Positions 12,737 to 17,099 of a stretch of 64,000 bases of DNA are shown here, piece after piece. The position numbers were made by a program, and so were the translations under genes. Below the pieces are notes generated by a model that had not been told where the DNA came from, made no database searches, and saw nothing but the letters and a program-made list of their open reading frames with translations. The stretch's first letter is position 1, and the number at the start of each line of letters is the position of its first letter. Origin of the DNA: Carnobacterium sp. CP1 (lineage in GTDB: Bacteria > Bacillota > Bacilli > Lactobacillales > Carnobacteriaceae); assembly GCF_001483965.1 (NCBI RefSeq), contig NZ_CP010796.1, positions 1,364,001 to 1,428,000 of the forward strand, in the 5' to 3' direction.

Positions 12737-14191
12737 ATGAAAAAGCACAAACGCTCAATGTTTTTGGTCGCACTAATGGTGATAGTAGGAGTATGTTTTT
12801 CAATGGCATATCCTATGGATGCTTCTGCAAAAACAACAGATGGAAAATACCTTATCGGAACGGATGTAACCTTTGCTCCATTTGAATACCAAACGGCCGA
12901 TGGAGAATACGTTGGAATCGATATTGATATTTTAAATGCCATTGCTGAGGATCAAGGTTTCGAATATGAATTAAAACCTTTAGGATTCAGTGCCGCACTA
13001 CAAGCTTTAGAATCCAACCAAATTGATGGAATGATTGCTGGAATGAGTATCACAGATGAGCGTAAAGCTTCTTTTGATTTCTCTGATCCATACTTTGAAA
13101 GCGGGGTCGTCATGGCCGTTGGTGCTTCAGATGATGAGATCACCAGCTATGAAGATTTAGCTGGAAAAACAGTTGCAGTCAAAACAGGTACGACTGGATC
13201 TGCTTTTGCAGAGTCCATTCAAAAAAAATACGGATTTAAACTGAATACCTTTGAAGACTCCGCTAATATGTATGAGGATGTTCAAGCTGGTAATTCAGAT
13301 GCCGCCTTTGAAGATTATCCAGTCATGGCTTATGCACTTAATAATGACCGTTTAAAATTAAAATTGCCGACTGAAGCAGAACCTGGCGATAATTACGGTT
13401 TTGCAGTGAATAAAGGAATGAATCCCGAATTGATCGAACAATTCAACGCAGGATTGATCAATATCCGTGCAAACGGAACATACCAAGAGATTTTAGATAC
13501 TTATTTAGGCGAAAATTCTACAGCTGCTGCATCTAATATGGGTTTCTTCGCATTGATCAAAGAAAATAGCGGCGAACTTTTAAAAGGATTAGGCCAGACC
13601 TTATTGCTGACGCTTATTGCTTTTGTGATCGCTACGATCGTCGGTGTTGTTTTGGGACTCTTTAGCGCTTCACCGAATACGGTTTTGAAATGGATCGCTT
13701 CTATTTATGTGGATTTGTTCCGCGGAATCCCTTTAATCGTTTTAGCATTTTTTGTTTACTTTTCTATTCCGCAGCTCTTTGACTTGCGTCTTTCAGCCAC
13801 TGTTGCCGGAATCATCACATTAAGCTTAAATACTGCTGCTTACATTGCAGAACTTGTACGCGGAGGCATCCAGGCTGTTGATAAAGGCCAACTGGAAGCA
13901 GCTCGCAGCTTAGGGTTGCCTTACAACCTTTCTATGCGCAAAATCGTGCTGCCACAAGCTATCAAAATCATGGTGCCTTCATTTATCAACCAATTTGTCA
14001 TCACGTTAAAAGATACGTCTATCTTGTCCGTGATCGGTCTCGTTGAATTGACACAAACCGGAAAAATCATTATTGCTCGGACTTTCTCATCTGGCGATAT
14101 GTGGTTGATCGTTGCTTTGATGTATTTAATCGTGATTACTGCTCTAACGAAATTTTCAAATTACTTGGAAAGGAAGTTAAACAATGCCTAA
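12737..14191 (+). CDS. glnP: Glutamine-type ABC transporter, fused substrate-binding and permease protein
   Basis: This 484-residue protein fuses a periplasmic-type binding domain to a membrane permease, as in Lactococcus GlnP. A signal sequence (about 1-31, ending ASA) is followed by a family 3 binding domain (about 35-255: [29 protein letters not shown]). The permease domain of about five helices (270-484) contains the EAA loop [10 protein letters not shown] that contacts the ATPase. Uptake of glutamine, asparagine or another polar amino acid is likely; the exact ligand cannot be read. AGGAGGGG precedes the ATG. The gene overlaps glnQ by 8 nt. Confidence 0.92.
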
Positions 14192-14915
14192 ATTAAAAGT
14201 TGAAAACCTTAAAAAAAGTTTTGGTCAATTAGAAGTATTAAGAGATTTAAATGTTGAGATCAAAGAAGGAGAAGTGGTCTGCATTATCGGGCCGTCCGGT
14301 TCTGGAAAAAGTACTTTCTTGCGTTGTTTAAATCAATTAGAAGAAATCACAGGCGGAAAAGTGATCATCGACGATTATGACTTAAGCGATCCTTCTCAAA
14401 ACATCAATAAAGTGCGCGAAAATATTGGGATGGTTTTCCAACATTTCAACTTGTTCCCTCATTTGTCAGTCTTAGAAAACATTACCTTGGCTCCTAAAGA
14501 ATTAAAAAAAGAAACCGATGCAGAACTTAAAACTAGAGCTCTAGGGTTGTTAGAAACGGTCGGTTTAACTGAAAAAGTTGACGATTATCCCAATTCTTTA
14601 TCAGGAGGTCAAAAACAACGTGTGGCCATTGCCCGTGCGTTGGCAATGCAGCCTGATATTATGTTGTTTGATGAACCGACGAGTGCATTGGATCCAGAAA
14701 TGGTTGGGGATGTTTTAGAAGTCATGCAAGTACTTGCCAACCAAGGGATGACGATGGTCGTTGTCACTCATGAAATGGGCTTTGCTAAAGAAGTGGCTGA
14801 CCGCGTTATTTTTATGGATGGGGGCTACATTGTCGAAGAAGGTACGCCCGAAGAGATCTTCAATCATCCCAAACACATTCGTACTCAAGACTTCTTAAAT
14901 AAAATTTTAGTTTAG
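14184..14915 (+). CDS. glnQ: Amino acid ABC transporter ATP-binding protein
   Basis: The 243-residue ATPase is the energy subunit for the fused GlnP-like protein. Walker [10 protein letters not shown] is at 36-44, the Q-loop is [12 protein letters not shown], the ABC signature is LSGGQKQR, Walker B is [12 protein letters not shown], and the switch histidine is in VVTHEMGFA. The sequence pattern is that of polar amino acid transporters (GlnQ/HisP type). Its ATG is inside the last codons of glnP, so the proteins are translated in a coupled way. A strong terminator follows. Confidence 0.95.
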
Positions 14916-14938: not shown

Positions 14939-14979
14939 AAAAAAGGTTCTATGGTTTTGTGCCATAGAACCTTTTTTCA
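14939..14979 (+). terminator. Terminator of the glnPQ-type operon
   Basis: AAGGTTCTATGG and CCATAGAACCTT pair across a short loop and are followed by TTTTTT. Confidence 0.9.
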
Positions 14980-15292
14980 TTTGTTTTTTTAATCATTAAA
15001 CGGCTACTTTGTTAAATCGTGTTGGCGACTCTCTTAGGTGTTGAAATTTCCTCCGAAACTTACGTGTTGCTTGTGGAAAGCCATGGAACCTCCTAGAGCC
15101 TTGGATGTCGCCATGATTTCACGGTTATAGAATGCAATCATTTCACTTACCCACACCAAAAATAATAAAACCTATTAATCATGAGGATAAAATCTACTCT
15201 TTAAGCTGCTGCAGTGGACTTTCATCCTTTTCCGCGATACTATTGTATAGAGTAGCAGAGTAAGAAGTAAGAGTATCGAAGGAGTGTTTGAT
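14980..15292. other. Interval without an intact gene (glnQ to HesB-like gene)
   Basis: Apart from repeat copy A at 15007-15172, the remaining 120 nt upstream of the HesB-like gene carry its likely promoter region (TATTGTATAG around 15241-15250) and RBS. I see no other feature. Confidence 0.5.
15007..15172. repeat. Intergenic repeat, copy A (short form)
   Basis: This 166-nt element is clearly similar to copy B at 15659-15909. The first block (15007-15102) contains the shared CTCCGAAACTTA and GCCATGG words. The second block (15113-15172) shares the TTATAG and CACTTA/CATTTA regions and ends in AAACC/GAACC. On the minus strand both copies show, in order, a TATAA-like box, an AGGAG ribosome binding site and ATGGC. 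In this copy the frame after ATG is only 16 codons (beginning MAFHKQ). Its length and the promoter/RBS layout suggest a degraded gene start or small-RNA/mini-element; I do not recognise it. Confidence 0.7.
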
Positions 15293-15649
15293 ATGTTTTT
15301 AGAAATAACAGAAGCTGCACAGCAACGCATTTCAAAAGCACAAACTCTCAATCCAGGGAAACTAGTCGTTTACTATGAATCTCGGATTGGCTGTATTTGC
15401 GGGAATAATGGTATTTTCACTTTAAAATTAACCCAACAAGAAGATCCTGAATTAGACACAACTCTAGCTAGTTCGTTAGGCGACTTGCCGATTCAAGGTT
15501 GGAGTTTAGACTTCTTAGATGAACAATTGACATTAAATTACCAAAAAGAAAAAAACACTTTGGTTTTAAAAGGTGCAAGCGGATTAATTAATCCTAATGT
15601 GTTGATTACAGATGATACAGGCTCTTCAGTCTTTTTAGCTGTACGTTAA
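15293..15649 (+). CDS. HesB/IscA-like iron-sulfur cluster biosynthesis family protein
   Basis: The 118-residue protein fits the small Gram-positive HesB-like family ('iron-sulfur cluster biosynthesis protein', YneR/YqkB type). It opens MFLEITEAAQQRIS, has an acidic beta-rich core, and ends DDTGSSVFLAVR. True A-type carriers use three conserved cysteines; here only the pair Cys-x-Cys in IGCICGNNG (about residues 34-36) is present and the C-terminal Cys pair is absent, so Fe-S binding is doubtful. The ATG at 15293 is chosen over the GTG three codons earlier, which overlaps GGAG. It is flanked on both sides by copies of an intergenic repeat. Confidence 0.7.
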   Translation: MFLEITEAAQQRISKAQTLNPGKLVVYYESRIGCICGNNGIFTLKLTQQEDPELDTTLASSLGDLPIQGWSLDFLDEQLTLNYQKEKNTLVLKGASGLINPNVLITDDTGSSVFLAVR

Positions 15650-15658
15650 AAAACAGCT

Positions 15659-15909
15659 CTTTGTCAGATCGTGTGGGTGACTCTTAGGGAGTTGGAATTT
15701 TCTCCGAAACTTATGTTTTTGCTTGTTGAAGGCCATGGGATCTCCTGGAGCCTTATAGTCTCCAGGTTTTCAAGCCTCAAACGAAGCATAAGCGCTTCGT
15801 AATTCGCATTGAATCCTCTTCATAGCTGCAAGCAGCCACTATTTCTCCAAAAATTTCAAGTTTATAGCATACAGCCATCTCATTTATCAATATCAAAAAT
15901 GATAGAACC
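15659..15909. repeat. Intergenic repeat, copy B (long form)
   Basis: This 251-nt element shares both end blocks with copy A (15659-15754 and about 15849-15909). It carries about 85-95 extra nucleotides between them, including a CGAAGC/GCTTCG hairpin near 15782. On the minus strand it has TTGATA, an 18-nt spacer and TATAAA, then, after a leader, AGGAG and ATGGCC. The frame after this ATG stays open longer than in copy A and is rich in Lys and Arg (starting MAFNKQKHKFRRK). Copies A and B bracket the HesB-like gene in the same orientation. Confidence 0.7.
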
Positions 15910-15941
15910 AAAAAAGCCAGCTCTATGAGCTGACTTTTTTT
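15910..15941 (-). terminator. Terminator after the NapA-like antiporter gene
   Basis: AAAAAAGCCAGCTC and GAGCTGACTTTTTT form a stem with one mismatch and a TAT loop; T-runs occur on both strands. Confidence 0.8.
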
Positions 15942-15968: not shown

Positions 15969-17099
15969 TCATTTGTTGTTGAAAAACACTTTCAATAGTG
16001 GCGGCGTTACAAGCGTTGTAATGATCACCACAATAATCATAGGCGTATAATAAACGACAGGAATCAACTGATTTTCTAATCCCATAGCGATAACGATTAA
16101 AGCTACTTCTCCTCGTGAAACCATTCCTGCCCCGATCCCCATTGAAGAGTGGGTATTAAATCCAGACAAGCGAGCACCTAAACCAGCGCCCACGAATTTT
16201 GAAGCAATCGCAATTACTGAAAAAACAAGCGTAAAGACGATTTGGTTGCTTAGTCCAATGAACGAAACAGAAATCCCGATGCTGGCAAAAAACACTGGAA
16301 CAAAAATACCATAAGCAATCGATTCTATCTTGCTTTCAACTTCTTTTTTATATTCTGTTTGTCCAATGGCAATCCCAGCAATAAAAGTACCTATAATACC
16401 AGCTACTCCTAAATATTCTGCAAATAAAGCAAAAGCAAAACAGACGATCAGTGATCCGCTTAACAAAGACTCAGTAACTTTTAATTTTGAAAACAGCCCT
16501 ATAAAAGTAGGAACCAACCATTTCGAAATCAACAGACTGATGACAAAAAACAGAATTTTTTCAACTAGTAACACAAATAGATTAACGTTCGTTCCCATAA
16601 AAAAGCTCATATCTAATGCCAATAGGATAACAACAACGATATCATCTATCACAGCGGCACCTAGCAAGGTAGAACCTTCCCTGCTCTGCAACCAGCCAAG
16701 CTCACGCAATGTCTGTACAGCAATACTGACAGAAGTGGCGGATAGAATCAAACCTAAGAAGATAGATTCAGCAATAGAAAGACCATAACCGTATCCTCCT
16801 ACGAACCCACCGACAATCGGAAATAAAATCCCTCCAGCAGCTACGAATAATGAAGACTTTTTGTTTTTATTCAAATCAGTCAAATTCGTTTCCAAACCTG
16901 CTAAAAACATCAGCAATAAAACTCCAATATCACTAAATACTTTTAAAATTTCAGTATCTTGTATCCAACCTAGCATAGCCGGACCAATAACGATCCCGAT
17001 GATGATTTTCCCTAAAACAGAGGGCTGCCCTAAACGAATACTGACTTGTCCCGCCAGTTTTGCAGCTAATAAAATAATTAAAAATTGTAAAATAAACAT
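15969..17099 (-). CDS. napA: Na+/H+ antiporter, CPA2 family (NapA type)
   Basis: This 376-residue membrane protein has about twelve helices and the paired aspartates of electrogenic CPA2 antiporters, Asp152-Asp153 in AVIDDIV. Size and sequence resemble NapA of Enterococcus hirae, which exchanges Na+ or Li+ for H+. Other conserved features are GLETNL near residue 68 and GMVSRGEVALI near residue 325. It lacks the TrkA-N domain found in KefB/KefC potassium systems. It is transcribed alone. A role in sodium or pH homeostasis is likely; the cation is inferred from family. Confidence 0.82.
   Translation of the reverse strand: MFILQFLIILLAAKLAGQVSIRLGQPSVLGKIIIGIVIGPAMLGWIQDTEILKVFSDIGVLLLMFLAGLETNLTDLNKNKKSSLFVAAGGILFPIVGGFVGGYGYGLSIAESIFLGLILSATSVSIAVQTLRELGWLQSREGSTLLGAAVIDDIVVVILLALDMSFFMGTNVNLFVLLVEKILFFVISLLISKWLVPTFIGLFSKLKVTESLLSGSLIVCFAFALFAEYLGVAGIIGTFIAGIAIGQTEYKKEVESKIESIAYGIFVPVFFASIGISVSFIGLSNQIVFTLVFSVIAIASKFVGAGLGARLSGFNTHSSMGIGAGMVSRGEVALIVIAMGLENQLIPVVYYTPMIIVVIITTLVTPPLLKVFFNNK

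Follow-up and report, generated by a model that had tools for sequence, protein, structure and literature searches.

Two copies of a repeat beside a HesB-like gene in Carnobacterium sp. CP1 as probable insertions of an ISL3-type MITE enriched at terminator tracts

Short non-autonomous transposons (MITEs) have been linked to transposases of the ISL3 family in distant organisms: a 187-nt MITE of Microcystis aeruginosa was attributed to ISL3 transposases (PMC11448079), and a 179-bp MITE of Methanosarcina acetivorans was assigned to the ISL3 element ISMac21 (PMC3852290). In Acinetobacter, the family-wide MITEAba12 was attributed to a co-resident IS with similar ends (PMC6382973), and in Enterococcus faecium, DNA carrying an ISL3-family element was found inserted into the terminator of an rRNA operon (PMC11702846). 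Within the accessible parts of the open-access literature, no description was found of the repeat family treated here, or of a preference of ISL3 elements for terminators. ISL3-linked MITEs are therefore already known as such; the preference for terminators as targets could be the part that is new.

The window analyzed here is a stretch of 64,000 nt from the genome of Carnobacterium sp. CP1. A first-pass annotation of this DNA had pointed to two diverged copies, A and B, of an unrecognized intergenic repeat that stand in direct orientation on either side of a HesB-like gene, and had offered a mobile cassette, an ancestral duplication or a small-RNA family as possible explanations. The reading that we favor, with a probability of roughly 88%, is that A and B are two old and independent insertions of one ISL3-type MITE, which is enriched at terminator tracts and is presumably moved in trans.

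Extent and spread of the repeat

The gene between the copies (positions 15284–15649, plus strand) is HesB-like according to a domain match (Fe-S_biosyn, PF01521). Its left neighbor is an ABC-transporter ATPase gene (14184–14915, plus strand), and its right neighbor is a CPA2-type cation:proton antiporter gene (15969–17099, minus strand). The homology of A and B proposed in the first-pass annotation is borne out, as the alignment is far above chance and both copies are members of a genome-wide repeat family: with A as the query against the whole CP1 genome, B is matched at E=1.4e-19, the left block being 79% identical, with B as the query, A is matched at E=1.9e-19, and a repeat search of A against B returns a 32-nt stretch of 84% identity. 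The end points given earlier needed small corrections after comparison with the family. Judged from the sequence and from this comparison, A is a short form of 171 nt on the plus strand (GGCTAC to AAAACC) that spans 15002–15172, with a left end that was read off the sequence and that a scripted delimitation places at 15003, and B is a long form of 255 nt on the plus strand (AGCTCT to AGAACC) that spans 15655–15909. A lies between a decayed left target duplication, CATTAAAC (14994–15001, its end set by family comparison), and a right one, TATTAATC (15173–15180), which is identical to the left in six of eight positions. B lies between TAAAAAAC (15647–15654), in which the HesB-like gene has its stop codon, and AAAAAAGC (15910–15917), an A-tract that adjoins a terminator hairpin and reads as a T-tract on the minus strand; here, too, six of eight positions are identical. 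No ORF of at least 60 aa was found inside A or B.

The extra middle sequence that had been noticed in B is present, but it is not private to this copy, as it also occurs in the long copies of a sister genome (G003) and in a second genus. Because the middle part is common to these copies, the short form of A, in which some of the core is missing and with it the second hairpin, more likely reflects a loss from A. The long form of the family measures about 252–255 nt. Among the 22 CP1 entries with both ends, four have a length of 250–257 nt and ten of 195–216 nt; the corresponding numbers for the 26 entries of G003 are 16 and zero.

Further copies, the lack of which would have spoken against a repeat family, are plentiful. 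At E<=1, the CP1 genome contains 44 pieces that match A and 39 that match B, which, once merged, amount to about 30 places in the set of fetched loci, and at least 30 places carry the repeat in G003, where the analyzed loci represent 30 of 48 matching pieces. The repeat occurs in two of five genomes of the genus, in 11 of 18 genomes and four of six genera of the family, and in 12 of 198 genomes drawn from the order, one of the 12 being outside the family. Compared between genera, the core is conserved at about 70–80% and the ends are more divergent. Plasmid and phage collections, from which records of the CP1 genome itself may be missing, contained no match. A pattern scan of genome contigs, which may omit CP1 and its near relatives, yielded ten single matches in unrelated groups that were taken as chance, and the many additional matches of a third round of profile iteration were taken as palindromic matches to both strands and excluded. 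In G008 and G011, pairs of copies stand head-to-tail in tandem, about 260 nt apart (L188, L191, L193 and L196). As a separate observation, an 8.9-kb plasmid contig (L066, 4622–7263) holds a stretch that is 87–88% identical to Enterococcus plasmids, in which it is annotated as cadmium resistance (CadD) with an ArsR-type regulator.

Transposon features and the link to ISL3

The family is a non-coding, non-autonomous transposon, i.e., a MITE: it is short and multi-copy, contains no transposase gene, and is represented by 48 entries with both ends, which range from 111 to 301 nt. Terminal inverted repeats are present but imperfect, with GGYTCTTTATC..GTGTTGGT on the left and, in reverse complement, GGTTCTATnAT..GTGTTGGT on the right, and the two ends are of two different types. 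The entries derive from 63 merged match groups, including three reverse-strand matches of a copy already counted; 45 of the 48, with at most three mismatches per end, entered the count of target duplications, and 47 entered the terminator count described below. Duplications of 8 bp are perfect in 20 of the 45 copies, compared to 0.53 in shuffled flanks, and have at most one mismatch in 27, compared to 1.64, whereas any other length from 2 to 13 gives only 0–5 perfect matches. The remaining 18 copies have two or more mismatches. RUP-like repeats, which are of the IS630 type, duplicate a 2-bp TA target. A RUP-like identity was rejected on account of the 8-bp duplication seen here.

An empty site can be read directly at G000:2276989 of CP1 (G000), where the MITE is flanked by GAAAGATA on each side and four of four sister genomes keep a single, unbroken GAGAAAGATAA. 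For a second site, G000:465845, G003 and G002 have orthologous stretches that are without the element and too diverged for the exact target to be read. The copy at the former site (L032:1400-1515, G000:C1 ~2276989) sits within a TAA stop codon; judging from the sequence, the first base of the MITE turns TAA into TAG, so that the frame is closed at the same position.

In these genera, IS of the ISL3 family (PF01610) also duplicate 8 bp and bear a pair of ends similar to that of the MITE; the presumed partner elements in the genus have ends that resemble GGCTCTATAATATTTAGTGTTGGTG and GGCTCTTTGACAAGTAGTGTTGGTG. In uncontrolled comparisons, the best end match of CP1 copies to an IS of their own genome is 21/25, the two ends averaging 18.4 and 16.9. 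G003 copies match IS of G004 and G010 at 22/25 at best (uncontrolled), and the best G008 copies match G008 IS at 23/25 and 24/25, the means being only 13.3 and 13.4 (again uncontrolled). An IS origin of the core was rejected, since the seven IS compared match the MITE below E=0.05 only at the ends. The repeat and a putative PF01610 partner transposase occur together in CP1 and G003. No PF01610 match was found in G011, G013, G014 and G015, which carry the repeat, and G002, G004, G007 and G016 have PF01610 matches and no repeat. In the repeat-bearing genomes that lack such a match, the partner may therefore have been lost, or another transposase may be active.

At L088:879-2342 (G000:C1 ~1867757-1869220), an ISL3 element that is 99.4% identical to two others in the genome ends at position 1266 of about 1524, where it abuts an inverted MITE copy; the remaining IS end was not found beyond the MITE, and the flanks are without a duplication. 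L208:823-2587 of G008 holds a MITE copy whose core is interrupted, next to its own hairpin, by an ISL3 element flanked by a perfect 8-bp duplication; another MITE copy stands beside it in tandem. Next to a MITE remnant at L029 (~1355–1450, G000:C1 ~1740780) lies another short sequence, one end of which is ISL3-like (GGTTCTATAATACTTAACGTTGGTG...); it perhaps represents a further small ISL3-derived family. G008 contains sixteen ISL3 transposase matches with near-equal profile scores, probably as the result of a recent burst.

Insertion sites and rival readings

For each copy, the empty site was reconstructed, and hairpins of intrinsic terminators were scored if their T-tract overlapped the 8-bp target, with a cut-off of E<=-12. 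This strict test is passed by 25 of 47 MITE sites, compared to 151 of 1500 composition-matched intergenic A/T tracts (10%; Fisher 8e-13), and failed by 22. Under a stricter control, for which tracts of matched composition were drawn 200 times from the 150 nt that follow stop codons, 9.1 of 47 qualify on average and 16 at most. An earlier and cruder scan had counted 11 of 47 sites, compared to 2 of 940 shifted positions. In the second genus, 11 of 16 sites qualify (11 sites from G013, two each from G008 and G011, one from G012), compared to 135 of 1311 control tracts. These 16 sites come from 40 stretches fetched for the better matches, 39 of which have both ends, and are those in which a duplication with at most one mismatch lies no more than 8 bases from where the ends are expected (null: 1). 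By an uncontrolled count, a strong terminator lies within 90 nt of 54 of 63 sites and is absent from that distance in nine. In 23 of the 54, at most 11 nt separate the start of the target from the hairpin's 3' base; in 19, the target is located 33–58 nt before this base, i.e., on or beyond the 5' side. Element and terminator are on the same strand at 11 and on opposite strands at 19 of 30 sites.

Both copies in the window fail the strict test at -12, with scores of 0 for A and -8.3 for B. The HesB-like and antiporter genes converge on a terminator-like hairpin (15918–15932), found as a plus-strand hairpin and with an E of -8.3 on the minus strand, and B is inserted in its left A-tract. A hairpin search also places a terminator-like hairpin after the ABC-transporter gene (14939–14977, plus strand), which ends 24 nt before A. 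Among autonomous ISL3 elements with exact duplications, six of 17 qualify, compared to 167 of 1243 control tracts (p=0.02), and four of 14 do so without three G008 elements (p=0.11); the 17 have exact duplications by selection, and at least one of them (L072) is of unusual length and may be misdelimited. Of the 16 IS loci in G008, three could not be resolved and one has three mismatches, which left 12 to be scored: six qualify, compared to 107 of 800 (p=0.003), or five of 12 (p=0.016) if L208, where the hairpin is that of the MITE and not a terminator, is discounted. Pooled, nine of 26 distinct autonomous elements qualify. This lean is weak, and the preference for terminators is clear for the MITE and just suggestive for its presumed ISL3 partner.

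Two direct copies about 480 nt apart that bracket a single gene could be the ends of a mobile cassette with the HesB-like gene as cargo, as the first-pass annotation had considered. However, the comparison of sister genomes that it had called for shows the gene without the repeats: in G001, G002 and G003 it adjoins the same ABC-transporter gene with repeats on neither side, and in G003 it is flanked by this gene and by the same antiporter gene. G004 gave no match to the HesB-like gene. Because the gene sits repeat-free at the same place in three sister genomes, it is a resident, and A and B are independent insertions; their separate, decayed target duplications, which differ in sequence, likewise argue for two insertions. 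A cassette is thus very improbable, so that of the earlier proposal the mobile element stands and the gene as a part of it does not, and the same two observations speak against an ancestral duplication; a duplication of the gene itself was likewise rejected on synteny. The proposal of a small RNA can be extended to a structured non-coding RNA family that was spread by transposition and is retained for a function in transcripts, as a 3'-UTR element or small RNA. The two core hairpins do covary: in hairpin P3, the Watson-Crick fraction is 0.844, compared to 0.691 after shuffling with a maximum of 0.768 (32 distinct arm pairs), and in hairpin P2 the mean duplex energy is -10.5, compared to -7.6 with an sd of 0.3 (63 distinct pairs), with shuffles that ignore kinship in both cases. 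Moreover, RNAalifold of 48 copies gives a consensus, albeit a weak one (-10.1 kcal/mol), in which six of 18 pairs have two-sided changes, and the conservation of the core relative to the ends between genera would fit as well. The outer stem P1 shows no covariation between copies, and folding z-scores are ordinary (-1.4 and -1.6 for B, +0.36 for A). Against a function as RNA, the mismatches in P3 have no strand bias, with 8 G-T and 9 A-C, and the near-equality of these small numbers favors a constraint on DNA over one on RNA. Rfam has no match at the gathering score in the window, and the ten matches at E<=1 around the locus are all below threshold. In addition, a whole arm has taken on the complement of its partner in two of 123 copies: the right arm of P3 in L034 and L109, from two species, reads TTTGAGGCTTGAA, which is complementary to the left arm, in place of AATTCGCATTGAA, apparently through template switching (quasipalindrome correction). 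An RNA family is therefore unlikely. The covariation of the arms probably reflects a conserved cruciform or hairpin in DNA, partly renewed by template switching, instead of a selected RNA.

For the insertions of an ISL3-type MITE, the putative mechanism would be as follows. A DDE transposase of the ISL3 type would bind the ends of the MITE and move it in trans, with the A/T tracts at the base of terminator hairpins as presumed targets. At the sites read, the 8-bp duplication is the T-tract itself, and the hairpin still has a T-tract after insertion; if termination is preserved in this way, the insertion would be nearly neutral, and copies could build up 3' of genes because of the duplicated tract. 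The sequences suggest that the tail of a terminator could be a safe haven, where an insertion does little harm. It is possible, if short of an even chance, that ISL3 transposases of the Carnobacteriaceae recognize intrinsic terminators by hairpin or cruciform and T-tract, the duplication rebuilding the latter. The association might also be one of survival, if the element inserts into any A/T-rich tract and persists only 3' of genes beside hairpins, a view that we hold just as tentatively. Every insertion studied is fixed, targets are 85% A/T, and the weak lean of autonomous elements fits survival, as do two uncontrolled counts, in which a 3' end is the nearest gene boundary at 39 of 46 sites and only two of 47 sites lie inside an ORF of at least 80 aa. 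However, survival 3' of genes does not readily account for 25 sites where matched tracts after stop codons give 9.1, nor for the repeated use of CTTTTTTA as a target, which is seen at four sites; in three of these the duplication has no more than one mismatch.

Implications and comparison with described systems

With these results, the unrecognized repeat is recast as a family of mobile elements in a bacterial family, one whose target rule can be tested. If the transposase chooses terminators, this would explain how a high copy number goes along with few broken genes, and it would predict the places of new copies. It would also mean that some 3' UTRs in these bacteria carry hairpins that derive from transposons and could be mistaken for regulatory RNAs. 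More generally, if ISL3 elements recognize terminators, they and their MITEs would colonize a renewable and near-neutral niche at the 3' ends of genes.

The MITE of Microcystis is similar in being short, with 8-nt direct repeats, a stem-loop, and ends that begin with GGCTCTTCG and resemble those of co-resident ISL3 elements; it belongs to another phylum, the likeness is one of description only, and the word "terminator" has no occurrence in the accessible text of that paper (PMC11448079). The ISMac21 MITE has an assigned ISL3 partner, as here, but is archaeal, and the portion of the source available gives no analysis of its target sites (PMC3852290). MITEAba12 resembles the Carnobacterium MITE in its spread across a bacterial family, and 40% of its copies have target duplications; it differs in having 9-bp duplications, ISAba12 as partner and a length of mostly 113 bp, and its targets are described, in the sections accessible, as A/T-rich with no sequence trend reported (PMC6382973). 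In the E. faecium case, as far as the available text describes it, a single plasmid-derived site is concerned, the insertion lies about halfway through the hairpin and no MITE is involved, but, as here, the insertion at an intrinsic terminator has duplicated 8 bp of target, and one end of the inserted DNA is an ISL3 element (PMC11702846).
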